Below, piece by piece: positions 1,950 through 23,453 of a stretch of 27,214 nt of DNA. The stretch spans positions 1 to 27,214 of IMG/VR virus record IMGVR_UViG_3300035430_000143; one strand, given 5' to 3'. Every line of letters starts with the position of its first letter. Positions within the stretch are counted from its first letter, which is position 1. Source of the DNA: a virus. The notes beneath the pieces were generated by a model, which was not told where the DNA came from, searched no databases, and saw only the letters and a list, made by a program, of their open reading frames with translations. The position numbers and the translations under genes are program-made.

Positions 1950-1960
1950 GCAACGCACAA
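1950..1960 (-). repeat. 11-bp motif GCAACGCACAA, copy A
   Basis: On the minus strand the motif reads TTGTGCGTTGC. This copy lies 4 bases past the stop of the gp16-like gene and about 45 bases before the start codon of the fibre adaptor. Identical copies occur at 12540-12550 and 16018-16028. The function is unknown; a promoter element or RNA-processing signal is possible. Confidence 0.55.
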
Positions 1961-1964
1961 AAAG

Positions 1965-4900
1965 TTAAAAACGACCAAAACCTCTTGCTCGATCATCTAT
2001 TGTTCCCTCAATAGCGTTTGCCATATCATTGACAAACCCTTTCCACCAATAAACTCTAGCAAAAGGCAGCGACTTAACAATTTCTTTTGTACCCTCACCA
2101 ACATTACCAGTTAATAAGTTGTGCATACCCTGCCCATAGTCAGCTGCAATTGATGGACCAGCACCAGCTAAACCTGTCACTGCATCAAGATAACTTTTTT
2201 CTTGTGGGAATCTTGGCTGAAGTAAACCACCAGTTAAATTTGAACCACCAAGAGCAAGTGTTGTTGCCATTGCTGTATAAACCATATCAGAATGTAAAGC
2301 CGCTATACCTGAGTAATCAAAAGATCTAGCAAACTGATCTTGAAAACTCATTTCAACAAAGTCAGGTGTCTTAGCTTGCAACACCATATAACCCAAGCCC
2401 ATAGCTATAGCTGTTCCAAAGAACTTATTTTTTAACTGACCATGTGCATAAGCAGCTGTTGTTTTGTTAAGAGCAGCAAAAGCATAACTGTAAAACTGAA
2501 ATGGTAATGCAAGTAGTGGGGTTTCTGCGCGAACATAACCTCTATACTTTGGGTCTTCTTTTGCATTTGGATTTAACTTTCGAGCTACCTTAATAGGTAA
2601 GTACGCAACGCCATCTGTAATTATTGGCTTATCAGCTGGCGTTCCCATCAAAATAGTATTTGATGCACCAGAAGACATAGCAACTCTAAACTTTCTTACT
2701 GTCTCTACATTGCCCCATTTTTCTGTATTAGCAATATATAAACCAGACTCACCTTGCTGATGAGGTGATGCTGTTATTTTTTTAGCTTCTTTTAGATCTA
2801 TGCCATATCTTAAAAGCCATTCTTGTTCTTGTTTGCTAGCTTGTCCTTTTGTCCATCTAACAGAGTAATCTATAATTGTATGGCTACGCATCATACCATC
2901 AAAGTCTTTGAATATACGAGTTATTGGTGCTAGACCATTTAACAAGTAAAAAACATTTTTACTTTTATCCATTATGTTTTGACGCAACGGATTGTTATTT
3001 AAATCATCGACAAGTCTTAGATGTGCAGAACCATGCAGTATTTCTAATGCCTCACCAGCAATTCTAAGTTCTTTTGCACCCATTCGAAGCTGATTGTCTT
3101 TCATAAAGGTAAACAATCCCTTCATTGTTTTACCTAAACCATGCTCCATAATTATTCTTGCTGGTTCTGTTAGCGTGGCAATACCAGCAGAGCCAAGATA
3201 ATTTAACTGAGCAAGCGTTCTTAAAACCTCAGCAAAGCCTTGATTTAATGTGTCAGGCTCACGCAATGGAGTGCCAGCCACACGATCATATAGATGCCTC
3301 ATGTCTTTAAGAATAGCATTGATTTCATCAACGCTCTTACCAGCCTTTAACAATCTAAGATATTCATCATCCAACACATCATCTATTGATTTGCCACCAA
3401 ACTGTGCAGAGAACTGATACCTTGGAGCAGTTCGCGCGGTGTATGCTTTCATTACAGATACAGTATTTGTGTGCATGTAATCTAAAACTAATTTGTTTGG
3501 TATATCTAATGTTCGGTGTCGTAGGTGTTTAGACATACCAGAACCAAATGTGGCAACATCAGGATCAAGTTCGTCACCTAAACCAAGAATATTATCTATG
3601 GCATCATCAACTCTTACTTTAATAGCTTCATCTGTACTATCAAACTCAAACTTTTTTAAGTTGCCTTTAGCATCTACCTTGTAACCTTCTGTGTTATACT
3701 TAAACCAAGAAGATAATATTTTAGCCAAACCTTCTCTATCTGCTTTAATAGCATCTTTGTCCCAATATCTAGGCCTAAACACTTCTTCAAATGGAGGGCT
3801 AACTGGCTGATCTTTTAACTCGGCTAAGATTGTTTCATATTCTTCAATAATAGATTTGTTTCTAGCTATAGTTTCTTTTAACCTAGCATACTCTGGTCTA
3901 GTTACTTTGCCTTTTATCTCTTCTTCAATACCTTTTATAACTCTTTTTCGTTTTGTAATATCTCGTTTGTAAAACTGTGCGCTACCAATCAAACCCTCAT
4001 CTCTTAGCCTTTTTTCCCATTTAGAATAAAAAGCATTGAGAGTATCCATAGCTTTGGCTTCAAAGTCATTTGCTGCTCTTTCACCCTTCATTGTTTTTCT
4101 ATCAACAACTTCCAACCATGTTTCAAAATCTTTTCTGCCAACCAAGTAATCCATTGGATTAGTAACACCCTTGCCAGTAGAATCGCCCCAGTTTACCAGC
4201 AAATCGTCATATGCTTTTACCCACTCACCCTCGTATAGTTTGGCATTCTGAAAAACAGAACTCTTAAGTGCCACTCCACTTTTGTGTGCATTGAGCAATA
4301 TGCCAGAGTCATTAGCTATTTCTAATAGTGTTAGTTTTGTTTGCGCTGGTATTGTTTTGTCTTGCAATACTCGTTTCATTGGCGTTGAAACTGCATTGAA
4401 TAATGGTGAGTCAGTAAACCAAGAGTCAGCAATCTTAGGATCGATCTCTACACCATCAATAGGTTCAATTGCTTTACGCAACTCATCTATTTCTTCTGCA
4501 CCTCTTTTGATAGCTTGATTGCGCCTTACTGTGGGAACACTAATAGCAGTACCAATCAAACCACCTAAAGCAGCTGCACTTGTAATATTTAAAGCAACCT
4601 CTTCTTTTGTTGCTAACGGATCAAAGGGCGCTCGAAGAGCTTCTTGTCCAGCAACAACAGTACCAGTTATTCCAGCAGCTTTAACAGCAGCTAATGGCAA
4701 CTTAGTTCCAGCAACAAAAGGTAATGCAATATAATTTATTGGGTCAAAAAACTCAGCAGCTACTTGAGAAAAAAATGATGTTTCATTTAAATATTCTCTT
4801 CTTGATTTGTTTTCTCTAAACTCCTTAACCAAAAAATCCATGTGATCTTTGTTTGTGGCTTGAAGAAAGTGAGTGCCATACTCCATTAAATCATCAGGTA

Positions 4901-5090
4901 TATGATCCCTTGCTCTATAACCCTCCTCTGCGGCAGATGGGAAAGCAAGAGAAGAATATACTTTATCAATTAATGGGTCATACTTATAAGCTAAAGTAGC
5001 ACCAACAGTTTTAAAAAATGACCTATCTTGCTCATTTAATATTGGCTGACCAACTCCAACCGTTTTTGTGTCTTTTAAAGCATTCTTCAT
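1965..5090 (-). CDS. Large internal virion (ejection) protein, gp16-like
   Basis: 1041 residues, last of three consecutive large or helical proteins between the tail nozzle and the fibre gene, which is the position of T7 gp16. Visible traits are hydrophobic Ala/Gly stretches near residues 118-147 and 165-185, a long charged coiled-coil zone near 380-445 (RKRVIKGIEEE through ETILAELKDQ), and further hydrophobic segments towards the C terminus (GTAIAMGLGYMVLQ). Such segments suit a protein ejected into the host envelope to help form the DNA channel. I do not see the lytic transglycosylase motif found at the N terminus of T7 gp16. The start codon overlaps the upstream stop (ATGA). Assignment rests on size, composition and gene order rather than clear motif identity. 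Confidence 0.75.
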   Translation of the reverse strand: MKNALKDTKTVGVGQPILNEQDRSFFKTVGATLAYKYDPLIDKVYSSLAFPSAAEEGYRARDHIPDDLMEYGTHFLQATNKDHMDFLVKEFRENKSRREYLNETSFFSQVAAEFFDPINYIALPFVAGTKLPLAAVKAAGITGTVVAGQEALRAPFDPLATKEEVALNITSAAALGGLIGTAISVPTVRRNQAIKRGAEEIDELRKAIEPIDGVEIDPKIADSWFTDSPLFNAVSTPMKRVLQDKTIPAQTKLTLLEIANDSGILLNAHKSGVALKSSVFQNAKLYEGEWVKAYDDLLVNWGDSTGKGVTNPMDYLVGRKDFETWLEVVDRKTMKGERAANDFEAKAMDTLNAFYSKWEKRLRDEGLIGSAQFYKRDITKRKRVIKGIEEEIKGKVTRPEYARLKETIARNKSIIEEYETILAELKDQPVSPPFEEVFRPRYWDKDAIKADREGLAKILSSWFKYNTEGYKVDAKGNLKKFEFDSTDEAIKVRVDDAIDNILGLGDELDPDVATFGSGMSKHLRHRTLDIPNKLVLDYMHTNTVSVMKAYTARTAPRYQFSAQFGGKSIDDVLDDEYLRLLKAGKSVDEINAILKDMRHLYDRVAGTPLREPDTLNQGFAEVLRTLAQLNYLGSAGIATLTEPARIIMEHGLGKTMKGLFTFMKDNQLRMGAKELRIAGEALEILHGSAHLRLVDDLNNNPLRQNIMDKSKNVFYLLNGLAPITRIFKDFDGMMRSHTIIDYSVRWTKGQASKQEQEWLLRYGIDLKEAKKITASPHQQGESGLYIANTEKWGNVETVRKFRVAMSSGASNTILMGTPADKPIITDGVAYLPIKVARKLNPNAKEDPKYRGYVRAETPLLALPFQFYSYAFAALNKTTAAYAHGQLKNKFFGTAIAMGLGYMVLQAKTPDFVEMSFQDQFARSFDYSGIAALHSDMVYTAMATTLALGGSNLTGGLLQPRFPQEKSYLDAVTGLAGAGPSIAADYGQGMHNLLTGNVGEGTKEIVKSLPFARVYWWKGFVNDMANAIEGTIDDRARGFGRF

Positions 5091-8005
5091 TTAATTAAAG
5101 CGTCCGAAATAATTCTTTCTCTATTTTGTATAAAACCTTCAAGAGTAAGATCTTGTAATTTTTGCTGTCTTTTTTCTTCTTTATCTAAAGCATTTTGTAA
5201 TTCTATTTGTTTTTGCTTACCTTTTTCTAAAGCAAAGTCTTTTACCGTATCAGTATCATAGTAAGGCCAAACAAGCTCACCATCTTCCTCAACAATTAAA
5301 GCATCCCACTGACCAGATTCATCAAGAACATATGTAAAGTATCCATATCCTTGAGCATCTTCATCAGGAACTAAATATACTTTTTTTATAGAATCATCAC
5401 CAATTGTTGGAACAAGAGCATAACCTTCTGGCAAACTAGTTTCTATATTTTTTATAAATTCATTTCTTACTTCTTCATCAGGAATAGTAAGTCTTATACT
5501 AAATCTATTTTTAGGTTGATTATCAGACGGGAATCTCATGTTAACAACATGATTGTCGCTAGTATGTGTAAGATTATATAACCTATCAATTTTTGTTCGG
5601 GCTTGGTCTAAACTATTTCCTCTCCTTAAATAGTATTCAAATACAGAATCATATTCTGAGGCTAGGTCTGGTCTTTTTGTAAAGTACCCTAAAAGATATT
5701 GTTTTGAAGTTTTATCTCCAAGCTCATTTTTTATTCTTACATTTAGCTGCTCATCATCTCTAAGGCTTACTAATTGTGTTGCAATTTCAGCAGCATTACC
5801 ACCAACATTAGATCTTATTTCAGCAACATCATCCAAAACACCCATGATCTCAGCGCTTAAATAACCCCTAAAAGCATTTACTTTACCTATATCAGTTGGA
5901 CTTTCACGGAGAGCAATAAAATGATCTAACAAAAGATCAGCTGTTTGAGGTGAACTAGTTCCATTATAAATAGTTGTTAAGCCATTAACTAAATCCCCAG
6001 ACATAGCCCCAGTTAAATACTTATATATCTCTTGGTTTTTGGAAGATGGGTTTAATAAGTTAACACCATTCTTTTTTAAAAGATTGTCACTAGCATTTAA
6101 AGTTTTTGTATTTCTAGGCGCACCTCCAGAAAACAAAGTTAGCTCTAGCCTTGCTTCTTCCATTGCCTCTTTTGCCTTGGCTTCTTTAGAAGAAATTTTT
6201 TCTCTTACACTATTTATGTGGCTTACAATTTCATTTCTTTTTGAGTCAGTGATTGTATTATTTATTGCCTCACCAACAGTTCTAATTGTGTCAGGTAAAT
6301 TTCTAGCTTCTTTGCCATTAGTTTGAACGAAGACTGCCAAAGCATTTAGTTCCGCTGAAGATGCTTGAGAAGAAACTATATTAGTTAAACCCTTTGCTCT
6401 TGCTGCACCTAGAGACTCTCCGTAATTATTAAACTGGGTATCGTTAATATCATTTTGTTTTAATGCTAACGCTAATTGCTCTTGTGTTTTTCGTATTTGC
6501 TCTGAGTCAATTATAGAATTATTAAGGTTGTCTATTAAGTTTGATACCCCAACATGAAGCTGTACGTTTCTTATGTTTGCATCTATTTTTTTACGAAAGT
6601 TATTCTTAACATCTTCAAGAAGACCTTGCACATGATCTCGATCTTCATCACTATTATATAAACTTGAACCTCTTAAAAATGAAAAGATAGTAGCTTGTCT
6701 TTCAGTTAATTGTCTTAAATCATTTGGATTGCCGCTTACTATATAGCTTTGAAGTGACTCAATGTTTTCATCTTGAGCAGCAGTAATAATCAAAGAATCT
6801 AACCTAGCTCTTCTAAGGTCTTGTATATTCTCATCTTTTTCAGATTCAGTTTTTGTTTTACCAGATACATACTTTTCATTTTCAATTTTTTCATCTGTTA
6901 AGAAATTGTTTTCTAATAAAGAATATTGAGTTATTGCTGATTGATAGTCTGGACTATTTTCAAAAGCATTGTAGGCGATAACAGCACTAGTTTGTTTTTT
7001 TGAATTAACATCATCAGGAAAGTTTACTTGGTTTCTTCTTTCTTGAGTTGCAATAGAGTCTGCTGTTTTTGCAGCATCTATTTCTCGAATAGCGTTGTAT
7101 CTTGAATTAACAGCTGTTGCTTTTGTTAAAAGTTTTGGAATTGTTTCTGTATTTAAATAAGGAACAAACCGATCAAGTCTTTCAATTGTTGCTTCACTTA
7201 GAAAGCCTCTATCTTTTCCTTGAGTAGATAGATATACAAGAATACCAGCTTGTTCTGTAGGGCTAGATATATTCTTTAACATATTTTCTAAAACACCACT
7301 TATGCCACTTATAGCAACTGAGTTTATAGCTGCGCTATCAGCGCCACGTTTTAATGGTAGATCAGCATCCAAACCTTCTTTTGCAGTTTTACCAGCCTCA
7401 TCAATAAGATTTAAAACAGCAATGTCATTGCCATCAATGCCACTAACATTAGCTTTTTCAGCAGCATCATCTACTTGCATTGCAATATTAAAAGCCTGAT
7501 CGTTTCTTGCTTCTGTTCTAGCTTTGCTAACTAAGTCTAACTTAGTATCTGCCATTTCATATTTAGCAACTTCAGAAACTACACCTTTAAATCTATCATT
7601 AGTTCCTTCACTTAAATCATTTAAGTATCTACCAAACTGTTGTTCATATGACACTGGATCAGGATAATCCATTGCAATTCGTTTAGATTCTAGTTGGATG
7701 TCATTACTAATTTGATTTACAAAACGTCTATCTAATGACTGATTAAAAGCTTCTTGCTCTATTGTTTGGACACCACGAATAACTTCTTTTCTTTTTGACA
7801 ATTCAGTAACTTGATCTGGTGTTAAAGATTGTGCTTTTTCTTTGCCTCTTTCTTCAGCTGCTCTAGAGCCTTCTTGAAATGCTATTCTGCCAACTGTATC
7901 AGAGAAATTAGAAACAGCCTGATAAACTTCATCTGCACCAGTATCAAATCGTGACACACCAATAGGCTTGTTAAATACTTGTGTTTGCTGACGAATAATT
8001 GGCAT
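5087..8005 (-). CDS. Large internal virion protein, gp15-like
   Basis: 972 residues, overwhelmingly alpha-helical and polar, rich in Glu, Lys, Asn, Asp and Gln, without Cys-based or enzymatic motifs that I recognise. The start MPIIRQQTQVFNKPIGVSRF is typical of podovirus proteins in this slot. Several stretches (for example KAKEAMEEARLELTLF, and the final ALEKGKQKQIELQNALDKEE) look like coiled coil. The place between a small Ala/Gln-rich gp14-like protein and the gp16-like protein parallels T7 gene 15, whose product forms the ejectosome tube. TAATG and ATGA overlaps at its two ends indicate coupled translation of the three ejection genes in roughly stoichiometric amounts. Function is inferred from synteny and composition. 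Confidence 0.75.
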   Translation of the reverse strand: MPIIRQQTQVFNKPIGVSRFDTGADEVYQAVSNFSDTVGRIAFQEGSRAAEERGKEKAQSLTPDQVTELSKRKEVIRGVQTIEQEAFNQSLDRRFVNQISNDIQLESKRIAMDYPDPVSYEQQFGRYLNDLSEGTNDRFKGVVSEVAKYEMADTKLDLVSKARTEARNDQAFNIAMQVDDAAEKANVSGIDGNDIAVLNLIDEAGKTAKEGLDADLPLKRGADSAAINSVAISGISGVLENMLKNISSPTEQAGILVYLSTQGKDRGFLSEATIERLDRFVPYLNTETIPKLLTKATAVNSRYNAIREIDAAKTADSIATQERRNQVNFPDDVNSKKQTSAVIAYNAFENSPDYQSAITQYSLLENNFLTDEKIENEKYVSGKTKTESEKDENIQDLRRARLDSLIITAAQDENIESLQSYIVSGNPNDLRQLTERQATIFSFLRGSSLYNSDEDRDHVQGLLEDVKNNFRKKIDANIRNVQLHVGVSNLIDNLNNSIIDSEQIRKTQEQLALALKQNDINDTQFNNYGESLGAARAKGLTNIVSSQASSAELNALAVFVQTNGKEARNLPDTIRTVGEAINNTITDSKRNEIVSHINSVREKISSKEAKAKEAMEEARLELTLFSGGAPRNTKTLNASDNLLKKNGVNLLNPSSKNQEIYKYLTGAMSGDLVNGLTTIYNGTSSPQTADLLLDHFIALRESPTDIGKVNAFRGYLSAEIMGVLDDVAEIRSNVGGNAAEIATQLVSLRDDEQLNVRIKNELGDKTSKQYLLGYFTKRPDLASEYDSVFEYYLRRGNSLDQARTKIDRLYNLTHTSDNHVVNMRFPSDNQPKNRFSIRLTIPDEEVRNEFIKNIETSLPEGYALVPTIGDDSIKKVYLVPDEDAQGYGYFTYVLDESGQWDALIVEEDGELVWPYYDTDTVKDFALEKGKQKQIELQNALDKEEKRQQKLQDLTLEGFIQNRERIISDALIK

Positions 8006-8442
8006 TAGCTCATCCTATATACATTATATGCTGTACTGGTAAGTGTACTCAAAGCATTTATACGAGCAGCCCTCATAGCATTTTGACCTCGCATAATTTC
8101 TAATCTAGCCTCAACAGTTTGTTTTCTTGATTCCATTCCTGATTGAAACTCTATTCTAGATGTATCTTTTGAGATAGTTCTTTGCTGTGCTTTTTGAAAC
8201 GCAGCTACAGATGTGCTAGAATCTTTTCCCATGTAAGCAAAGACAGCGTCATTAGATGCTCGAGCTTGTGCATATTGTTCTAGCCTAGCACTTCTTTGCT
8301 GCATTGCTCGAACTTTACCAAGCTCTCGATCAATCCTCATTTGTCTTGCTTGTTGTTTAGATTGTATTTCCCTAGCTCTGCCAGCTTGAATAGCTGCACC
8401 AGCTTGCATTACACCACTAATTGCTGCGATTGCCATCCACAT
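8005..8442 (-). CDS. Small internal virion protein, gp14-like
   Basis: 145 residues. An N-terminal Ala/Gly-rich hydrophobic helix (MAIAAISGVMQAGAAIQAG) is followed by a long Arg/Gln/Ala-rich helical part (REIQSKQQARQMRIDRELGK, then ARLEQYAQARASNDAVFAYM). This is the usual layout of small podoviral ejection proteins that occupy the T7 gp14 position. The first ATG gives MWMAIAAIS; a second ATG two codons later is equally possible. The stop overlaps the start of the gp15-like gene (TAATG), and its own start overlaps the nozzle stop in the same way. Confidence 0.75.
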   Translation of the reverse strand: MWMAIAAISGVMQAGAAIQAGRAREIQSKQQARQMRIDRELGKVRAMQQRSARLEQYAQARASNDAVFAYMGKDSSTSVAAFQKAQQRTISKDTSRIEFQSGMESRKQTVEARLEIMRGQNAMRAARINALSTLTSTAYNVYRMS

Positions 8443-10685
8443 TAGAATATTAACTCCGCTATAAGGCCATTAAGTTGAAGATCTAATGGCGCGTTTTGTG
8501 TTATTGTTATTTGTGGGTCACGATTATAACCCAATAGTCTAAACTCTTTTTTACCTGTGAATGCCTGTTGTTGTTGAGATAAGTCATCTGTTACATTTCT
8601 AACAACCATAGCTGTCCCATTTACGCTACAAGATAGTGTAGAGTTTAAATCTAAAAATACACTACCTATTCCTCTAGGAATACCTGTTGTTGGGCCAGAG
8701 CCTAAATTAGCATCTATTGGATTTGTTTTTAGCTCTACATCAAATTTAAAACCTATTTCAGCAGAAGTTAAAGAAGCGTCAACACCAGAAACATTTACAG
8801 TACCACCAGAAACAGTAAAGTTTCCAATAAAGTTATTTCCATCAATTACACTTACAACAGCACCATTGTGAAAATCAGCAGATACATTAAACACACCAGC
8901 AGTTCCAGTATATATAGAAGCCATGTCAGTATTAAATGTTGAGTCAAACTCACATAAAACAATCTTATTTGTGCCATCTCCTAGATTATATTCTATATTG
9001 GCAAACACTCTATCATCAATAGTGACACAGGAATGAAATGTGCCATTAGTAACAAACTCCACCCACCCTGCACGTTGCTCTGCTCTATTGGAATTAAATA
9101 CAGCAAAAGTACCATCACTGTTTAAAATAAATACATAGCTTTCAGATCTAGCCAAAGCTCCATAAAGAGTATTCATTTCTATAGGAGTTTTAATAAGATG
9201 CGAAGAAATAGTAGATATAGCATTAGAAACATAAGCAGCTTCAGAGTCGCTAAATAAATACTCTCTAACAATCTTGCCACCCTTTTGAACAAACAAGGTA
9301 GCACCATCAATAGCTTGTGGCCTTGAAAAGTCAGAACCAAATGGTGTCTGTCTTCTTACCTGTGCATTTGTTGGAGTAATAGGTTGGTTTTGAAATGCTG
9401 GTACATAAAACTCAGCAGAGGCTGAAAAAACCTGTAAGTCTCTATTAGAAACAACATGACGAATTTGTTGAATGTCACCAACAGCAGCAGTTAAATGTAT
9501 AGAATCATTATCTAAAGCATCACCAACATCAAAATTATAATAAGCAGCAGATTTACTTAGCCAAATAGAATCTGGTTGAGCGAGTGTTCCTGCAAAAACT
9601 AATCTGTTTTCGTGAAAAGTAACGGCAGCTGGGAACCCTCGAAGAGAAGAATACGATTGCTCATCCCATGTTGTTATAGGCGCATGAGTAGCAATGGTAG
9701 GTGTGCCACCTCCAATTTCAGAAGCATTTGCATTAGATCCAGCAGTTATTCTAAATTTATCATCACTAATGACAGAGTGAACTGTTCTTGTGCCATTAAT
9801 TTGATTAACTGAAATGCCACCTATTGTTCCAGCTTTTGAAATAGAAATTGAATCATTCTTAGCAAAGCCGTGATTAACAAGTGTAAATTCTAAAAGGTTA
9901 GACCCCTCATCGCTTTTTACTGAGTTTACTTTTAATGTAACACTTAATTCTTCAAGAACATTACCTGTTGCTACAGTTGAACTTGTAACTCCAGTAATTT
10001 CTATTTCATTTCCATTATATCTTACTGTTGTACCAATATGACTAGAGGGTGATGAGGTGTCCCAATAAGCACTGCTTGTTGTTAATGTAACCCCATTACC
10101 ACTTGTTGCTGAAGGATCTAGTGTCATACCAGCTGTTTGAAATGGATAATATGGTTGATAAATTTTTGAAGCATCTGTGTTTTGATCAAATCTAAAGCTC
10201 TCAACTTGGAATGATGTTAATCCAGTTCTTACAATTTGTTGAGGTATAAAGGTTTGATGAGCAATAAACATTACATCACCAGCTTGAGCAAAAGTATATT
10301 CATGTAAAAAATCATGATCAAACTTTAATGCACTTGAATTAACGTCTGATGTAATAGTTTGAATAAGTGAAACAGCACCAGTAGAAGGATTTATCTGAAA
10401 TATTCTTATTTTTTGATGCTCAAGAGAAACCACATATTTCTCATCATCAGAAAACACAAAGGGTAACAATCTAGACTGCTGCACTTTTGCTGTGTTTATT
10501 GTTGTATCAAACTCATATACTTTTGTAAGGCCAGATCTTTTTACTATACCACCTTCAGATCTAAGAAAAAAGTTTTTAACTCTTTGTGCTGATTGATTAT
10601 AAATAGGTGTATCAGTTCTTGAATATAAAGAAGGACTTACTTCACCAAATGCAAAGTTTGTTAACGGTATTCTTACTTTCTGCAT
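8442..10685 (-). CDS. Tail nozzle (tubular protein B, gp12-like)
   Basis: 747 residues. The N terminus (MQKVRIPLTNFAFGEVSPSL, RVKNFFLRSEGGIVKRSGL, then FVFSDDEKYVVSLEHQKIRI) is the hallmark start of podoviral nozzle or stabilisation proteins: a FxxGExSP-like segment, then GGxxxRxG. The rest is beta-rich with many Thr, Ser, Asn and Gly residues. Length is close to T7 gp12 (794). It follows the adaptor gene directly with a TAATG junction, the same order as T7 genes 11 and 12. Its product would form the distal tail tube through which DNA leaves. This is one of the clearer structural calls in the window. Confidence 0.85.
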   Translation of the reverse strand: MQKVRIPLTNFAFGEVSPSLYSRTDTPIYNQSAQRVKNFFLRSEGGIVKRSGLTKVYEFDTTINTAKVQQSRLLPFVFSDDEKYVVSLEHQKIRIFQINPSTGAVSLIQTITSDVNSSALKFDHDFLHEYTFAQAGDVMFIAHQTFIPQQIVRTGLTSFQVESFRFDQNTDASKIYQPYYPFQTAGMTLDPSATSGNGVTLTTSSAYWDTSSPSSHIGTTVRYNGNEIEITGVTSSTVATGNVLEELSVTLKVNSVKSDEGSNLLEFTLVNHGFAKNDSISISKAGTIGGISVNQINGTRTVHSVISDDKFRITAGSNANASEIGGGTPTIATHAPITTWDEQSYSSLRGFPAAVTFHENRLVFAGTLAQPDSIWLSKSAAYYNFDVGDALDNDSIHLTAAVGDIQQIRHVVSNRDLQVFSASAEFYVPAFQNQPITPTNAQVRRQTPFGSDFSRPQAIDGATLFVQKGGKIVREYLFSDSEAAYVSNAISTISSHLIKTPIEMNTLYGALARSESYVFILNSDGTFAVFNSNRAEQRAGWVEFVTNGTFHSCVTIDDRVFANIEYNLGDGTNKIVLCEFDSTFNTDMASIYTGTAGVFNVSADFHNGAVVSVIDGNNFIGNFTVSGGTVNVSGVDASLTSAEIGFKFDVELKTNPIDANLGSGPTTGIPRGIGSVFLDLNSTLSCSVNGTAMVVRNVTDDLSQQQQAFTGKKEFRLLGYNRDPQITITQNAPLDLQLNGLIAELIF

Positions 10686-11278
10686 TATGTTCGCCTATTA
10701 GTGATAAACCGACTTGTTGAAAGTTTCCTTGTTGTTTGTTGCTGTGCATCTAAGTTTCTTGCTTTCATCATAGATGTAGCCGCTTGTTGTGTCATTAGCT
10801 GAGCTAAACTTTGGTCTCTTGCTAAACTTACAGCAAATACAGAAGCAAGCTCATACTCAACAGCAACGGTAAAATATGAAGGCCAGCCTTGTTCATCTGC
10901 TCTAAATGTAAAATCTAAAACAAGTTCAGAACTTGATGCCTCATTGCAAAACAATTTATTTCCATAAGTTTGATATTCTATGGGCGTGTCATTTACAGTA
11001 ACAACATGTGTCATTAACCAATCGCTTGGAAGCTGATAAGCTGCATCGAATCTACCTGTTGGTTGTTCTGATAATCTATTTAATATTGATTGATTGGTTG
11101 CAAACCTCCAACGTGTGTTAAGCAAAGATGATCTAGCAATGTCCTCATACATATTTGAAGCAATTAGCGCTTCATTGTTTCCATCATCAAATGATGTGAT
11201 AGGTTCTGCGCCCACAAGAATAAGAGCGCGGCTACATACAGCCACAGGTGATTGCGCTGGTGTACTCGAAACTGCCAT
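10685..11278 (-). CDS. Tail adaptor (tubular protein A, gp11-like)
   Basis: 197 residues. The sequence VAVCSRALILVGAEPITSF, then MYEDIARSSLLNTRWRFATN, then AYQLPSDWLMTHVV, is the typical pattern of the gp11-type adaptor ring: helical N terminus, xxWxFAT, and a Leu-Pro-x-Asp-Trp motif. T7 gp11 has 196 residues, so the length is right. It connects portal to nozzle. The gene follows the capsid block after a strong hairpin (11297-11319) and is coupled to the nozzle gene by TAATG. Confidence 0.85.
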   Translation of the reverse strand: MAVSSTPAQSPVAVCSRALILVGAEPITSFDDGNNEALIASNMYEDIARSSLLNTRWRFATNQSILNRLSEQPTGRFDAAYQLPSDWLMTHVVTVNDTPIEYQTYGNKLFCNEASSSELVLDFTFRADEQGWPSYFTVAVEYELASVFAVSLARDQSLAQLMTQQAATSMMKARNLDAQQQTTRKLSTSRFITNRRT

Positions 11279-11296
11279 ACTAAATCCTCAATAAGA

Positions 11297-11319
11297 AGGT
11301 GGGGCCGAAGCCCCAACCT
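11297..11319 (-). terminator. UUCG hairpin after the small head gene (partial terminator?)
   Basis: On the minus strand AGGT plus GGGGC pairs with GCCCC plus ACCT around a TTCG loop closed by C-G, with one bulged T. The stem starts 1 base after the stop codon of the 11321-11584 gene. The following bases are TCTTATT, a poor U-run, so it may act as a leaky terminator or as a 3' stability element that raises capsid mRNA above downstream tail mRNA. Confidence 0.6.
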
Positions 11320-11320
11320 A

Positions 11321-11584
11321 TTAGTCAGTATCGGTTTCTGCTACTGCTGTACCATCAGATACGTCAACAACAGAACCAGTATTTGAAAGAACAGTACAAA
11401 AACTTGTTGTCGGAACATTACTATCGCGAACGATAATTAAGTCACGAACAGCAAGCATATTTGCTGCACTATTAAAATACCCAGCAGTGTTCACAGTTGC
11501 GATAGCATCAGCAGATGTATACATCCACAAGCTACCGTTTGAATCACCACCGACACGAGTTAGTCCACTTGAAGCAAAAGCCAT
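11321..11584 (-). CDS. Small head protein downstream of capsid (unknown function)
   Basis: 87 residues starting MAFASSGLTRVGGDSNGSLW and including MYTSADAIATVNTAGYFNSA. Rich in Ala, Ser, Thr, Val and Asp with an acidic end (AETDTD). Small proteins with this start and pattern sit directly after the major capsid gene in many marine podoviruses. A decoration or head-fibre role is a reasonable guess but unproven. It has a good RBS (gagggtta on the minus strand) and is followed at once by a strong hairpin, consistent with high expression alongside the capsid. Confidence 0.7.
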   Translation of the reverse strand: MAFASSGLTRVGGDSNGSLWMYTSADAIATVNTAGYFNSAANMLAVRDLIIVRDSNVPTTSFCTVLSNTGSVVDVSDGTAVAETDTD

Positions 11585-11596
11585 TTTCTAACCCTC

Positions 11597-12406
11597 CTAG
11601 TTATTATCTAGCAGTTCGTATACGCCGTTGTTATCAATAACAACTGAACCCATTGACATCATTGATGTCGCTAGGTGCGATACTTTTTCTGCTACATAGT
11701 TTACTTCAGTCTGAACATCAGAGTTCACACCAATACCTACTGCTCTCATGTGATAGCAAAAGTTTTTGCCACCAGCGACAGCAGACGTTGAAAAGATCTT
11801 GAAGCCCAAGAACTCTTTCATTGTCATACCACCAGCAAACGGTAGGTTCTGTGGTCCAACAAAGTCGCTAGAAGCAAACTCATTAATGTTGAACAGGTCT
11901 GCAAAACCAGCAGGGGACATAGCAATATAGCGTTGTCCGTCTTCTGGAATGTCAGCTGAACCAAATGTTTCAAACGTAGACAGTAAGTCTGCTTTTTCAA
12001 CGGCAGATGAAGTGTCATGCAACTGAGTTGAGTTAGCACCAGCGTCCATAGCTGTTGTGATAATCTCGTCAGTTTTACGACCCAACGCAGCAGCGGCACT
12101 TTCGGCAATAGCTTGACGTTCGTTGATGTTTGTTTTCAACTCGTCAAGTTTGTCGATATATTCCGCTGCATAAAAGTCAGCCATTGTTACTTCCACATTA
12201 GTATGTGCAAGTTCCATTGGTGTGACATTACCATTGCGTGATTTTGTTGAAGCTGATCCAGTTCCTATTTTCTGGAATCGAGCAACATTGCCTGTCACAT
12301 TCGTAGAACGAATGGTATTACGCAGTTTTGAACCCATACGCTGGTATGCAAGATGCACATCGGTCTCAAACTGTTTAATAAAGGCTTGGTCTATTGTATT
12401 AGCCAA
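11597..12406 (-). CDS. Major capsid protein
   Basis: 269 residues, short compared with T7 gp10A (345). Recognisable capsid features are the start MANTIDQAFIKQFETDVHLA, a Gln-Arg-Met-Gly-Ser-Lys-Leu-Arg segment, MADFYAAEYIDKLDELKTNI, and a C-terminal part with YIAMSPAGFADLF, GMTMKEFLGFKIF and VGIGVNSDVQTEVNYVAEKV, which correspond to the P-domain and A-domain strands of HK97-fold capsids of marine podoviruses. It lies after the scaffold and gp13-like genes and before the tail adaptor. RBS aggagaaag precedes the ATG closely. Confidence 0.9.
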   Translation of the reverse strand: MANTIDQAFIKQFETDVHLAYQRMGSKLRNTIRSTNVTGNVARFQKIGTGSASTKSRNGNVTPMELAHTNVEVTMADFYAAEYIDKLDELKTNINERQAIAESAAAALGRKTDEIITTAMDAGANSTQLHDTSSAVEKADLLSTFETFGSADIPEDGQRYIAMSPAGFADLFNINEFASSDFVGPQNLPFAGGMTMKEFLGFKIFSTSAVAGGKNFCYHMRAVGIGVNSDVQTEVNYVAEKVSHLATSMMSMGSVVIDNNGVYELLDNN

Positions 12407-12485
12407 TTTTCTTTCTCCTAAATTAAGTTACGGGCATCTTGGGTATCTGCTCTACATCCTCAATGAAGGTGTCCAAATGGGCTTC

Positions 12486-13025
12486 TCAGTGTATCACAGG
12501 CCTTGATAATTTATGTGAAACACAATTTTGCGACGGATTGCAACGCACAAAATCAACATATCTCACATTTTTCCAATCACTAAACCCAACAGGATGAAAG
12601 CCTAACCATACCGCCCAGTTTAACATTGATTCATATTCCTCTGCTATTTGCATAGATAAATCTTCATATGACTGATCCAAAAATGATATTAATAACTTAG
12701 ACCCTCGTGCCAATCCCTTAAAGTTTTTTGTGACATGATTTGTAAATAGTGCAAATAGTTGTGGTGGCTCCTCAGAAAAGAATACACCACTTGCCATCAT
12801 AATATTCCAGTTCTTATCTCTTACGATGTAAACTTCAGAATCTTTTTGCAAATCTTGTAAAGCTTCGAAAATAGTAGAATAGCCAAGGTTTGATAGTTCC
12901 CTTTCTGTTTCTGGGTGAAGTATAGAATATATCTCAGCTATATGATGTTCGTGAAAGGGGGTCATATAGTACGACCCACTTTGCAATATCTTTACTTCAT
13001 CCATAGAGTTTCTTAAAACCCTCAT
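12486..13025 (-). CDS. GNAT-like virion-region protein (T7 gp13 type)
   Basis: 179 residues. The pattern HHIAEIYSILHPETERELSN, VYIVRDKNWNIMMASGVFF, FTNHVTKNFKGLARGSKLLI and NWAVWLGFHPVGF resembles the GNAT acyltransferase fold as found in the phage gp13/DUF2833-type proteins, with the W..xLGF end of the domain visible. A catalytic activity is not evident. The N terminus overlaps the scaffold gene by 29 bases, and a second in-frame ATG at 13004 is an alternative start. In T7 gene 13 follows gene 12; here it sits between scaffold and capsid. After the TGA stop the same frame stays open for 20 codons to a TAA at 12423 (see findings). Confidence 0.65.
   Translation of the reverse strand: MRVLRNSMDEVKILQSGSYYMTPFHEHHIAEIYSILHPETERELSNLGYSTIFEALQDLQKDSEVYIVRDKNWNIMMASGVFFSEEPPQLFALFTNHVTKNFKGLARGSKLLISFLDQSYEDLSMQIAEEYESMLNWAVWLGFHPVGFSDWKNVRYVDFVRCNPSQNCVSHKLSRPVIH
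12540..12550 (-). repeat. 11-bp motif GCAACGCACAA, copy B
   Basis: The same 11 bases as at 1950-1960 and 16018-16028. Here it lies inside the last codons of the gp13-like gene (coding for part of FVRCN), about 135 bases before the major capsid start codon. Confidence 0.55.
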
Positions 13026-13713
13026 CTACCTGTTTAACATAATGCATATCACGTTTAGATGGAGACCAGTAACGCTCATCTTTCATCATTTCTTGCAGCT
13101 CTACTTCATTAAAGTTAGATGCAATGCTGCCTTGATCTGTAACAGCTGGGTCTTTTATTGCATTCATAACAGTCTCAATAGCAATAATGCCGTCAGCACT
13201 TTCGCACATTCTTTCTATTGCTGGTATAGCTTCTTCTGGAAAAAACTTATTAGCAAAGAGAGATGCAGCTTCTATTCTAGCATCAGAGTTATCTCCAAGC
13301 CTCGCTGCTTCGGCATCCATATCAGGTTCTTCACCCATGCCGTTCATATACATTTCAATACCCTTTTGAAATTCTTCATGGGTATATCCATTAGAATGGC
13401 AATGATCAGCCCATTCTTTTAACATATCACTTTCAAGAGCTTCAGTTTCATCAACAAAATCAGGTAGTTCATATTCTCCAGAAGATGCTGGAACCCCTTC
13501 AGATGCTTGTTGATTTAACTCATCTATTAAACGATCTCTAACATCGTTCTCTTTTTCTCCAAGCTTTGACTCTAAAGCTTTGTATGCTTTACCCAAATCT
13601 GCTGGATCATTAAATTTTTCTGGCAACCATTCTGGTCTGTCAGATACTTCTTCAGAAACTGGTGCTTCTACAGCTTCAGCTTCTGTTGCTTCACTTGTTT
13701 GATTTTCTTCCAT
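12997..13713 (-). CDS. Scaffolding (capsid assembly) protein, T7 gp9-like
   Basis: 238 residues, very acidic at the N terminus (MEENQTSEATEAEAVEAPVS) followed by DRPEWLPEKFNDPADLGKAY, the signature RPEWLPEKF segment of T7-type scaffold proteins. The middle is Glu/Asp-rich and helical. The C terminus is more basic (DERYWSPSKRDMHYVKQVDE), as needed for binding the capsid shell. Gene order (portal, then scaffold, then capsid) supports the call. The protein would guide procapsid assembly and leave before or during packaging. Confidence 0.87.
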   Translation of the reverse strand: MEENQTSEATEAEAVEAPVSEEVSDRPEWLPEKFNDPADLGKAYKALESKLGEKENDVRDRLIDELNQQASEGVPASSGEYELPDFVDETEALESDMLKEWADHCHSNGYTHEEFQKGIEMYMNGMGEEPDMDAEAARLGDNSDARIEAASLFANKFFPEEAIPAIERMCESADGIIAIETVMNAIKDPAVTDQGSIASNFNEVELQEMMKDERYWSPSKRDMHYVKQVDEGFKKLYG

Positions 13714-13969
13714 TGTTTTTTACCTTATGTGCATGTGTCATACGAGCTTCTATTAAACCAACTAAATATCGCTGGCCTTCAATATGACGCAGTTCCTCCG
13801 TAGTTACATTAGGGCCATTTACCATTTCAATAGTAATTGATCTTAGATATTGCAAAACTGCTTGTCCTGTCGCAGAACCAAATAGTAAGGCTATATTTTC
13901 GCTAATCTGTTGATCTTTTTCTTGTGGACGCTGTATCCCATCAACACCCACATTAATTTTTTTGGTCAA
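13691..13969 (-). CDS. Bbp19-like small structural protein
   Basis: 92 residues. The stretch IALLFGSATGQAVLQYLRSI, then NVTTEELRHIEGQRYLVGLI, has the layout of the phage Bbp19 family (small helical protein encoded between portal and scaffold, with an F-x-T/S-x-x-G-x-x-V-L-x-x-L start and a GxR motif). It lies exactly there and its last 23 bases overlap the scaffold gene. The molecular role is not established beyond probable virion association. Confidence 0.65.
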   Translation of the reverse strand: MTKKINVGVDGIQRPQEKDQQISENIALLFGSATGQAVLQYLRSITIEMVNGPNVTTEELRHIEGQRYLVGLIEARMTHAHKVKNNGRKSNK

Positions 13970-13972
13970 GCA

Positions 13973-15511
13973 TTACTCCATAGGTTGTGGTGCTTGCGCC
14001 TGACTTTGCCGCATTTGATTCATAAATTCAACTATTTCTTTTCTTTCCTCAGAATCTCGTACTAGAAAATCTGGAACCCCAAACTTTTTAGCTAAATATG
14101 CAGCTGTTTCTTCTGAGTTAATTAAAAGGTTCATAACCTCTGGGCCAAAGGCGCTTTGAGATAATTCTAAAAATCGTGACACCGCAGTTATATCTTGATT
14201 GGCTTGCGCTTGCGCTAATGGTGACACAGATTTAATCTTAACTTCTCGACCATTAATAGTTGGAACTTCAAGTCTTCCTTGTTTCTTTAAAATATGAACA
14301 ACTCGCTGAAGTACTGGCTGAACTAGCTCAATTTGCAATCTTCCAAAAGCAGAACCAATACGTCTTGATAAGTCTGCCATTCTTTCTGCAATCTCTGTTG
14401 CAGATGCTGGGGTTCGATTAGGATCGCCAAGCATATCATTGTATAAAGCACGTTTGATATTATTACGCATATCACCAAGAACAAGTTGTGCTACATCAAA
14501 GCTACCAGCAGCTTGTATTGGCTGCAATCCAGCAGACCCCATAGCCTTTGGAATAATTGTCCCTGGAACGAGATTAATTGTATCAGGATTTACCACCCCA
14601 TCATCTTCCATTTGATAGATACCAGAAATAGACATTTGTGCATTTTCAAGTATTAACTCAACTGTAAGGTTAGTAGTTTTGATTGCACTTAATGCGTTGA
14701 ATAGTGGTCCTCGACCATAAACTTCACCAGCGCATTTAGACCAGCGAAAACAAATAAATGGATTAGAGCCAACGCCAGACATTTCTCTTTTCATTAATAT
14801 TGATTTGGTTGTCATGCAAATTGCATAATGAAAATAAGCTTCTTGATTTATTTTAGAATAATCTCTGCAAACAACCTCTAATACTGTTGTTGTTTGATCA
14901 GATTGATTAGCCATTAAACCTAACAGCTGATCGTTAAATGTTCCATTAGGATATAGTAGTTTTAGCTGATCATACCTAATTTGTTTTCTTTCTCGAAATA
15001 CATGGTCAATTCTGTCGTCAGGCCCAGTATCTAGTATAACATGAGGTAAAGGAATAGCAGAGAAGCGTATAGGATTTATTGAATCTCCTTCCTCACATAC
15101 TAAGATACCAGTCCCAACAGCCAAGTCCATAAATGATTCATGAACCTCTTGAGCAAAGTTTGAGTTTTGCAAAACCTCAAAGACATATTCTGTAACATCA
15201 TCTAAATCATTATTAACAGATTCTCTTTGATCTTTTGGTACTTCAGACCCAGCCGCTAGATCTGCCCATCGAGCAAAGTTTGGTACAAGACCAGACTGTA
15301 ATCGAGAAGCAAACTCTTGAACACCTACAACGGCAGTCTCATCGAAGATCTTATCATCTCTTCTTTGACCAGAAACTTCATAGTAAAATGACTCACGTTG
15401 AGGTAACGCATATTCATAACACTCTTCAAAAACATCAACAAAGTTTGCTCTCTTTGCTTTTGCTCGTTCATATCGTTTAAGATACTCTTTTGCGATTGGA
15501 TCTGTAATCAT
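13973..15511 (-). CDS. Portal (head-to-tail connecting) protein
   Basis: 512 residues, within a few residues of T7 gp8 (536). Family features are the N-terminal helix IAKEYLKRYERAKAKRANFV, FVDVFEECYEYALPQRESFY, then FDETAVVGVQEFASRLQSGL, WADLAAG, a central GRGPLFNALSAIKTTN, and a C-terminal TPASATEIAERMADLSRRIG helix. These match the podovirus head-to-tail connecting family. Its dodecamer would form the DNA channel at one capsid vertex, bind the large terminase, and later the gp11-like adaptor. TAATG coupling to the upstream charged protein. Confidence 0.92.
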   Translation of the reverse strand: MITDPIAKEYLKRYERAKAKRANFVDVFEECYEYALPQRESFYYEVSGQRRDDKIFDETAVVGVQEFASRLQSGLVPNFARWADLAAGSEVPKDQRESVNNDLDDVTEYVFEVLQNSNFAQEVHESFMDLAVGTGILVCEEGDSINPIRFSAIPLPHVILDTGPDDRIDHVFRERKQIRYDQLKLLYPNGTFNDQLLGLMANQSDQTTTVLEVVCRDYSKINQEAYFHYAICMTTKSILMKREMSGVGSNPFICFRWSKCAGEVYGRGPLFNALSAIKTTNLTVELILENAQMSISGIYQMEDDGVVNPDTINLVPGTIIPKAMGSAGLQPIQAAGSFDVAQLVLGDMRNNIKRALYNDMLGDPNRTPASATEIAERMADLSRRIGSAFGRLQIELVQPVLQRVVHILKKQGRLEVPTINGREVKIKSVSPLAQAQANQDITAVSRFLELSQSAFGPEVMNLLINSEETAAYLAKKFGVPDFLVRDSEERKEIVEFMNQMRQSQAQAPQPME

Positions 15512-15969
15512 TATAAAAACCTACTATAATATCCCATTCCACCAGATGAAGAGGTAAGTAGACTTCTTCTACCCTTTCCGCTTCTTTTAGATCTTTTCTT
15601 GCCTCTACTAGCCGCTGCTTCTGATGTCGCTTTTGTTGCGCCTTCAGCTACATCAAGAGGTTTTGCTTTTTTTACTTCTTTTTTGGTTTCTTCTTTTACT
15701 TCTTTTTTTACTTCTTCTTTGGGAATGCCAGTAGATGTAACTTCAGAGCCAACAGCCTTATCAAGCTCATTTTGTCTTTCTTCCTGTTTTTCTTGCTTTT
15801 CTACTATATCTTTTACAGTAGCAGTTTCTTTCTTTTCTTTTTCAAGCTCTTCTTCTCTAACTTCTTCAGCTTCTTCAATCTCTTCTACTTTTTGAGCTTC
15901 TACTTCTTCTTCTTGCTTTTCTTGCTCTTCTTCAATTATTGGGTCAGGTTTTGATTTTTTAAAACACAT
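15511..15969 (-). CDS. Glu/Lys-rich charged protein between terminase and portal
   Basis: 152 residues starting MCFKKSKPDPIIEEEQEKQE. Residues 12-60 are almost purely Glu, Lys, Gln and Val with coiled-coil character; residues 80-100 are KKEV/KEE repeats; then a basic Arg/Lys/Ser/Gly segment and the end SSSGGMGYYSRFL. Proteins starting MCFK with a variable low-complexity middle and a Gly/Ser-rich end sit between terminase and portal in many marine podoviruses. The function is unknown. An excellent RBS (aaaggagaa) precedes the ATG, and motif copy C lies about 50 bases upstream. The DNA on the plus strand is nearly all pyrimidine here because of the Glu/Lys codons. Confidence 0.75.
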   Translation of the reverse strand: MCFKKSKPDPIIEEEQEKQEEEVEAQKVEEIEEAEEVREEELEKEKKETATVKDIVEKQEKQEERQNELDKAVGSEVTSTGIPKEEVKKEVKEETKKEVKKAKPLDVAEGATKATSEAAASRGKKRSKRSGKGRRSLLTSSSGGMGYYSRFL

Positions 15970-16017
15970 TGTATTTCTCCTTTGCTATTTTCTCCAAATC
16001 AGAGAAAAACATTTTTT

Positions 16018-16028
16018 GCAACGCACAA
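16018..16028 (-). repeat. 11-bp motif GCAACGCACAA, copy C
   Basis: This copy abuts the stop codon of the large terminase gene and lies 49 bases before the start of the charged protein. It is identical to copies at 1950-1960 and 12540-12550. Confidence 0.55.
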
Positions 16029-19963: not shown

Positions 19964-19986
19964 CCCCCCTCTCCCTCTCTCCCCCC
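19964..19986. other. Polypyrimidine/polypurine tract
   Basis: 23 consecutive pyrimidines on the plus strand: six C, a mixed C/T core, six C. It is nearly mirror-symmetric. On the minus strand, which is the terS mRNA sense, it is a G-rich purine run with three G-tracts of 6, 3 and 6. It may form a triplex or G-rich structure, or be part of a packaging signal beside terS. Confidence 0.7.
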
Positions 19987-20011
19987 ATTTCGACACCAAA
20001 ACAGCTATCTC

Positions 20012-20017
20012 TGTCAA
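20012..20017 (-). promoter_or_regulatory. Possible -35 box for the leftward virion block
   Basis: A perfect TTGACA on the minus strand, 2 bases from the palindrome at 20019-20037 and 64 bases upstream of the terS ATG. No good -10 is visible 16-18 bases further on, so this is a weak call. Confidence 0.25.
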
Positions 20018-20018
20018 G

Positions 20019-20037
20019 TAGTGACGTAACGTCACTA
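20019..20037. promoter_or_regulatory. Candidate operator: 19-bp perfect palindrome plus half-site
   Basis: TAGTGACGTAACGTCACTA is a 9-1-9 perfect inverted repeat. The half-site ACGTCAC occurs again at 20051-20057, exactly 22 bp from the one inside the palindrome (about two helical turns). The pair lies between divergent TTGACA boxes, where a repressor or activator could control both directions. The XRE-type protein at 22221-22475 or the HTH proteins at 22891 and 26011 are candidate ligands. Confidence 0.65.
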
Positions 20038-22220: not shown

Positions 22221-22475
22221 TTGCCCAACACAAGGCTGTCTCACAATTACAATGAGATGATTCAGATGCTCATTGATGCGAGACATAACAAAGGATTAAG
22301 CCAGCCGCAGCTGGCTAATATCATAGGCTGTACCGAATCATTGATTCATAAATGGGAACAGCACAAGAGAGTACCGTCTGGTTTCTTTCTTATGTGTTGG
22401 TTAGAGGCATTAGGATATGACATCGAAGTCACGAAAAAAGAAAGTAACAATAACGTGCATCAGTTGCGAGAGTAA
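22221..22475 (+). CDS. XRE-family HTH DNA-binding protein
   Basis: 84 residues from a TTG start directly after the preceding TAA; the ATG at 22257 is an alternative. Residues 13-57 (MIQMLIDARHNKGLSQPQLA, NIIGCTESLIHKWEQHKRVP) form a classical five-helix XRE/Cro fold: GLSQPQLANIIG gives helices 2 and 3 and the recognition helix, and the WE pair is typical. It probably binds an operator; the palindromes at 20019-20037 and 23437-23450 are candidates. Its last 59 bases overlap the next, four-cysteine gene in another frame. Confidence 0.85.
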   Translation: MPNTRLSHNYNEMIQMLIDARHNKGLSQPQLANIIGCTESLIHKWEQHKRVPSGFFLMCWLEALGYDIEVTKKESNNNVHQLRE

Positions 22476-23091: not shown

Positions 23092-23453
23092 AATCGATAG
23101 GTCGAGCAGTACAAGATGATGTCTGGGCAAAGAGTCTAAGCAGATCATCGCATGAAATTTATTCAGAAGACAGACAGAAGCAAAGGGAGGCCAGCAAAGG
23201 CTGGTCTCCTGATACCCTCAAAGTAATGGCAAAGCGTATCAAAGATCGAGACTACGTTGGTCACAATTATTTGTGGGGCAGAGAAGCTATTGAAATGATT
23301 AACAAAAACCTGTTGACTGAGGCAGATCTAGATCCACATCGAAGTGGATACGCAAGATTATTACGCCACACATACAGTGAATTGGTTGCAGAATCTATGC
23401 TGAAAAAACTAATTGATCAGCATGATAAAATTAAAAGTGACGCAACGTCATAA
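23088..23453 (+). CDS. Hypothetical protein, 121 aa
   Basis: Not recognised. Start taken at the ATG that overlaps the preceding stop (ATGA); a TTG four codons earlier is possible but unneeded. MKSIGRAVQDDVWAKSLSRS is followed by a charged, helical sequence (DTLKVMAKRIKDRDYVGHNY, then HTYSELVAESMLKKLIDQHD). The last codons, SDATS, coincide with the second copy of the palindromic element (23437-23450). Predicted soluble and helical. Context suggests a role in DNA replication or recombination. Confidence 0.7.
   Translation: MKSIGRAVQDDVWAKSLSRSSHEIYSEDRQKQREASKGWSPDTLKVMAKRIKDRDYVGHNYLWGREAIEMINKNLLTEADLDPHRSGYARLLRHTYSELVAESMLKKLIDQHDKIKSDATS
23437..23450. promoter_or_regulatory. Second copy of the candidate operator core
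   Basis: GTGACGCAACGTCA differs from GTGACGTAACGTCA at 20021-20034 at one position only. It lies at the 3' end of the preceding gene and 65 bases upstream of the exonuclease start, at the head of a 61-base gap. It may control the recombination module separately from the first part of the operon. Confidence 0.55.

Follow-up and report, generated by a model that had tools for sequence, protein, structure and literature searches.

The window analysed here, the complete 27,214-base-pair (bp) IMG/VR contig IMGVR_UViG_3300035430_000143, raises the question of why a short word should recur unchanged among the virion genes of an uncultured marine podovirus. The 11-bp sequence GCAACGCACAA occurs at 1950–1960, 12540–12550, and 16018–16028, always in the letters of the + strand, and has no fourth exact copy in the window. 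An initial annotation had reported three identical copies in the same orientation, and all three are exact. The virion genes lie on the − strand and comprise TerL, portal (PF12236), a T7-type scaffold (PF05396), capsid (PF19821), tail and internal virion proteins, and fibre; in the sense of their transcripts the word reads TTGTGCGTTGC. Judging from sequence patterns in the window and its relatives, each copy of the repeat is probably the upstream half of a late promoter, at which the host RNA polymerase would act with a phage-specific box.

A conserved box among the virion genes

The number of copies says less than it seems to. Dinucleotide shuffles of the window contain the 11-mer 0.03 times on average and none of 100 shuffles reaches three copies, so the description of the repeat as far above chance is correct for a word fixed beforehand. 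It is not correct for a word picked afterwards: 21 different 11-mers have at least three copies in the window (mean of 4.8 in thirty second-order Markov simulations), and because this one was chosen from among them the count alone is weak evidence. The copies had also been placed at gene ends. Those at 1950 and 16018 are indeed intergenic and adjoin the stop codons of the genes for a 1041-amino-acid (aa) internal virion protein and for TerL, respectively, the TerL stop being followed by a gap of 59 nucleotides (nt) before the next gene. The copy at 12540, however, lies inside a 179-aa open reading frame (ORF; 12486–13025), about 54 nt ahead of its end.

Relatives were collected from IMG/VR by a portal search (80 loci, 740,720 nt) and by a separate fibre search (80 loci). 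Loci were left out if the gene end or start in question was absent or lay too close to the end of the contig, which removed twelve portal-set loci for TerL, twenty-four for capsid, and two from the fibre set. In the 80 portal-set loci the exact 11-mer has 95 late-sense copies and none as the reverse complement, the reversed word, or the complemented word. Since its eleventh base is variable, we define the box as the 10-bp TTGTGCGTTG, for which these loci hold 126 sense copies and no antisense copy. It stands at the end of TerL in 61 of 68 testable loci, usually 1–2 nt past the stop codon, and 139–152 nt upstream of the capsid start in 53 of 56. Five of the seven loci without it at TerL read TTGTGCATTG there, and all three without it at the capsid site read TTGTACGTTG. 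The remaining twelve copies include three upstream of TerS (seventeen loci testable), one after TerS, one inside the portal gene (L065:3818), and seven near contig ends that were classed as TerL-end or capsid-like from the appearance of their sequence. Within the fibre set, the box is found in the 120 nt upstream of the fibre ATG in 50 of 78 loci, and gene maps of seven long relatives show the same layout of boxes. The initial annotation had named random scatter in the genome as an outcome fatal to its proposal. Checked in the relatives, this is not what we see; the copies keep to fixed places.

Two genomes have an additional late-sense box downstream of the fibre gene (G004:28407 and G006:16712), with ATTGA ahead of the box and a weak downstream element. 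A third, G003 (IMGVR_UViG_3300030118_001729; 43,851 bp), contains two early modules and two lysis cassettes and looks like a concatemer or chimera.

The sister group lacks the box. The nearest isolate in the phage collection searched is Pelagibacter phage EXVC031P Hodr, with 62 per cent portal identity to the window. None of 80 loci collected around the Hodr portal contains a copy, and the Hodr and MEP301 genomes have no systematic copies. In the Hodr group TerL runs up to the next start codon, with its stop there or a few bases off, which leaves no room for a box at this end. A search for a common late word in this group found none: no 8-mer shared by its TerL-end and capsid-upstream regions is present in more than nine of 46 loci.

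A promoter-like geometry

The three boxes of the window are read on the − strand. Site 1 (box at 1951–1960) precedes the fibre gene (1006–1905) and comes just after the gene for the 1041-aa internal virion protein. Site 2 (12541–12550) falls within the last part of the 179-aa ORF and precedes the capsid gene (11597–12406), and site 3 (16019–16028) is directly past the TerL stop, upstream of the genes for a charged 152-aa protein and the portal. For the region downstream of the box, 42 noncoding sites with less than 70 per cent identity over 35 downstream bases were chosen automatically, and window site 1 was added by hand, giving 43. A TG is present at +18/19 in 26 of these sites, while the top count at any offset was eleven in 2,000 shuffles that preserve base composition only. 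Likewise, TA starts at +21 or +22 in 31 of the 43 (shuffle mean 9.7, maximum 23). Among the non-redundant sites of the site 1 type, T21, A22, and G19 occur in 16, 17, and 13 of eighteen; at site 3, G19 (18/19) and T22 (17/19) predominate, and the element is therefore shifted by one base there.

As predicted from these patterns, the geometry is that of a −35 element formed by the 3′ TTG of the box and an extended −10 element, with a 17–18-nt spacer between them and seven extra invariant bases upstream. A TA-containing −10 element 16–18 nt from a TTG-type −35, as in sigma-70-type promoters, is present in 31 of the 43 sites. The full consensus of TTGACA and TATAAT is not: the −35 is constant in its TTG only, and the hexamers after TA vary. 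At site 1 the proposed −35 TTG is at 1953–1951 and the proposed extended −10 (TG C TATTTC) at 1925–1933, with its TG at 1933–1932 and its hexamer at 1930–1925. The corresponding proposed region at site 3 is TGATTTGGAG (15992–16001, TG at 16001–16000), and site 2 has a weak −10-like stretch, TGTTTCAC (12515–12522). Promoter and terminator scans of the window yielded no more than shuffles did and failed to single out the repeat sites, and a tRNA scan was empty.

The region upstream of TerS bears on which part of the box would be the −35. In the window and most relatives, a palindrome near TGACGTnACGTCA stands three bases ahead of TTGACA, followed after about 25 nt by a G-rich tract; in the window this promoter region spans 20012–20034 on the − strand, with the palindrome TGACGTTACGTCA at 20034–20022 and TTGACA at 20017–20012. 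Two relatives (L009 and L063) have TTGTGCG directly ahead of TTGACA instead, and the distance to the G tract is the same within one base or so. Because TTGTGCG abuts TTGACA at these two promoters, the last TTG of the box falls in the −35. Among 51 distinct TerS-upstream sequences, two have the box, 32 have the palindrome (by pattern), and seventeen have neither, many of these carrying near-palindromes. A second TGACGTnACGTCA-like palindrome is present at 23438–23450, near the end of a 125-aa ORF ahead of YqaJ. The pattern has 44 matches in the 80 relatives' loci versus three in 80 Hodr-type loci, and the palindrome is likely a second operator. The G-rich tract itself (GGGGGGAGAGAGGGAGAGGGGGGC, approximately 19964–19987, − strand) lies between the TerS promoter and the TerS ATG, and G-tracts are conserved there in relatives; a role as a packaging site or as an initially transcribed region is conceivable.

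We also scanned IMG/VR as a whole for box-N17-TGNTA and for a control made of the reversed word with the same tail, obtaining at least 120 stretches for each. Among the box matches listed, 38 of 121 (near-duplicates included) are directly ahead of a homologue of the window's fibre gene and two are elsewhere in loci with some window homologue. Among the control matches listed, none of 120 is ahead of a fibre gene and four are in loci with any homologue.

At the capsid site the box lies within a gene, where codon choice can be followed. Of 63 genes, 59 have 90 open upstream codons; 52 of these are distinct, and 28 are non-redundant. Across the 28, the box codons are Phe TTT (28/28), Val GTG (25/28), Arg CGT (28/28), and Cys TGC (26/28), and the codon after the box is Asn AAT in all 28, although the gene's other Asn column prefers AAC. 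In the other Arg columns of the gene the commonest codon is shared by 33 and 52 per cent of sequences, in contrast to the invariant CGT of the box. Where the −10 falls, Val is encoded by GTT in 27 of 27. The capsid-site box therefore sits in a coding region with frozen codon choice, a constraint acting at the nucleotide level. If the box is a promoter element, this would be a case of a promoter constraining protein sequence within a gene.

Taken as a mechanism, the 10-bp TTGTGCGTTG, confined to the strand of the virion genes, would mark promoters that follow TerL and precede the capsid and fibre genes; some relatives would have another upstream or downstream of TerS. Its last TTG would be that of the −35 hexamer and TG-N-TA the extended −10, so that the host RNA polymerase with its main sigma would start about 7 nt past the −10 hexamer. 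The extra bases TTGTGCG abutting the −35 would be read by a phage-made factor; the promoters would therefore fire only after early gene expression.

Several observations weigh against this reading. The exact box is missing from 28 of the 78 fibre loci, although one-base variants occur in twelve of them and two-base variants in two, as judged by eye. The −10 hexamers at window sites 2 and 3 are poor, and the shuffles behind the second element control for base composition alone. Box-N17-TGNTA is not specific by itself, because 81 of the 121 matches listed lie in contigs with no window homologue. At several fibre starts (L266–L345) 6 nt separate the proposed hexamer from the ATG (TAGGAT-GCGGCC-ATG), so a transcript from there would be almost leaderless, and the hexamer can equally be a Shine-Dalgarno sequence (TAGGATGCGGCCATG). 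Finally, codon conservation in the 179-aa gene persists downstream of both the box and the −10 (TCA 23/24, CCC 26/28), and its other Phe columns are also 60–90 per cent TTT; the two elements therefore do not explain all of the conservation.

The candidate reader and competing explanations

The candidate for the phage-made factor is HTH84, an 84-aa Xre-type protein (Xre proteins have a helix-turn-helix fold) of the early operon (22221–22475, + strand). Among ten window proteins scanned (nine from the early strand and TerS), it alone has a clear transcription-regulator match, to PF13560 just above the cut-off; a weaker profile lead is phrog_4836, 'CII-like regulator'. The gene is present in thirteen of 36 portal-selected records, including all twelve that hold its neighbour, a resolvase gene. 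Conservation was assessed on fourteen copies from the portal-selected records; loci fetched with conserved-block peptide patterns were not used, since their invariance is biased. In the ten distinct sequences, 12 of the 18 positions from 38 to 55 are invariant versus 4 of 25 at the N-terminus, with the peak at and after the recognition helix. The homologues in seven Hodr-type loci differ in the recognition region.

The structural model of HTH84 has an Xre fold (predicted local distance difference test, pLDDT, 80.6; predicted template modelling score, pTM, 0.65). Its nearest matches are Xre regulators and the C proteins of restriction-modification systems, with Z of about 10; C.Esp1396I (3ufd) aligns over 64 residues with Z 10.1 and a root-mean-square deviation of 1.8. 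In both fold and length HTH84 fits the C-protein type (an Xre-type helix-turn-helix protein of about 75–85 aa). Lambda CII is not among the 50 structure matches listed, which excludes nothing. A search for HTH84 in contigs with one-base box variants (TTGTGCATTG, TTGTACGTTG, TTGTGCGTGG; L049, L065, L080, L081, and L083) gave no match.

From its sequence and model, we tentatively propose HTH84 as the factor that reads the box, a small activator that would sit beside sigma region 4, though we rate this somewhat below an even chance. A fuller scenario is likewise possible rather than probable. HTH84 would recognise a half-site of seven bases joined to the −35, and by way of three to five such promoters scattered over the genome it would switch on the whole virion programme of this podovirus clade. 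One of the promoters would lie in coding sequence and there fix the FVRCN peptide and its codons. The Hodr group would have lost the box or never had it, and its HTH84 homologues would carry changed recognition helices.

One point counts against HTH84 directly. Xre dimers usually read palindromes, and because the TerS region has one, HTH84 may read that instead. The same promoters would then have another reader, either a host alternative sigma or a phage sigma or activator that escaped recognition, with HTH84 acting at the palindromes at TerS and upstream of YqaJ; this is a serious contender, if on balance improbable. The asymmetric 10-bp box does resemble a −35 read by one factor, and the window has, at 20022 and 23438, the palindrome TGACGTnACGTCA, a classic dimer operator. 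Sigma70_r4 and Sigma70_r2 domains, however, were found in none of seven records, several of which are incomplete (controls matched in 14/14 and 10/14, respectively). Moreover, G001 and G004 carry HTH84 together with the box yet show no palindrome by pattern, although two records out of seven with the box make a thin basis.

The initial annotation had offered an RNA cleavage site as the alternative to a late promoter. As a cleavage or protein-binding site in the transcript, the word would act on the processing or stability of RNA and in this way set how abundant the virion mRNAs are relative to one another. The sites are indeed found between the genes of a single long operon, all in the same sense, and unstructured cleavage sites would leave no fold signal. 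Nevertheless, we consider this unlikely: there is no consistent fold (mean minimum free energy z −0.39 over 42 sites), an Rfam scan of the window was empty, and an RNA element would not predict TG-N-TA at a fixed distance, or that the last TTG coincides with TTGACA at TerS. Of the two functions suggested, the promoter is favoured by the late-sense conservation across the clade, the −10-spaced element, and the TerS coincidence, while cleavage is disfavoured by the lack of a consistent fold and by a downstream TG-N-TA that, with the box, marks fibre starts in the IMG/VR scan.

A promoter for a single-subunit phage RNA polymerase (T7-like or N4-like), with the box as its specificity region and a start close by, is very improbable. 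An invariant word ahead of late genes is what T7-like phages have, and the virion genes here are T7-like. Yet no PF00940 match was found in the seven records, several of which may be incomplete, while T7 itself was found as a control. The second element also lies 18–24 nt past the box, too far for a T7-type promoter, which spans about 23 bp. Chance, or a by-product of protein coding, can be set aside: 21 window 11-mers have three or more copies and the capsid copy does encode the conserved FVRCN, but the box holds the same noncoding places on one strand in dozens of relatives of the portal and fibre sets, and its Arg codon departs from the gene's usage elsewhere.

Known systems and further observations

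The late promoters of phage 7-11 (phiEco32-like) are read by the host polymerase core with the phage sigma SaPh711_gp47 and follow GTAAtg-16-aCTA (PMC8948821). The present phage is similar in having a bipartite promoter ahead of late genes, in several dispersed copies, with the late cluster opposite the early genes, and presumably in using the host polymerase core. It differs in the box and spacing, in that no phage sigma was found, and in a −10 side that is sigma-70-like (TG-N-TA) (PMC8948821). C.Esp1396I recruits sigma from a site adjacent to the promoter (PMC4041747). If HTH84 reads the box, the resemblance lies in the small Xre-fold activator; C proteins bind inverted repeats as dimers (PMC4041747), whereas the box, for which HTH84 is the candidate binder, is asymmetric, 10 bp long, and overlaps the −35.

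The proposed promoters can be set beside two further systems. Like them, if HTH84 is the reader, CII-activated promoters have TTG-containing repeats over the −35, a poor promoter beneath, and a small phage activator. In lambda, CII binds over the −35 via TTGC-N6-TTGC, while the two TTGs of the box are 7 nt apart from start to start, with the bases between them invariant. At T4 middle promoters (MotA/AsiA), host polymerase uses a −10 element, and the −35 upstream of it is overlain or replaced by a phage box. The general plan proposed here is the same, but the box and spacing differ. A literature search by box string and for pelagiphage late promoters found no recognisable description of the box (subscription papers and preprints were outside its scope), and a search for Hodr found no paper on that phage.

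Phages of the window's group recur in marine metagenomes, and their nearest isolate in the phage collection searched, Hodr, is without the box. With a defined late box and a named candidate reader, the switch from early to late genes could be put to the test using synthetic promoters and a single small protein, and the box could also serve as a marker for late genes in uncultured contigs. Searching for a host by way of prophages or metagenome-assembled genomes (MAGs) returned just four contigs, in unrelated MAGs. One of these, L182 (CAKZOI010000050.1), belongs to the phage group of the window, carries the box after TerL as well as at the capsid site, and is filed in a MAG named 'uncultured Opitutae bacterium', where it is probably mis-binned.

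Two features of the window lie apart from the box. The fibre gene contains seven tandem repeats spaced 30 nt apart (1049–1322), and a long ribosome-binding word, AAAAGGAGAAC, is common to early-strand genes (20324, 20868, 23499, 24779, + strand), in many cases with GTAA after it.

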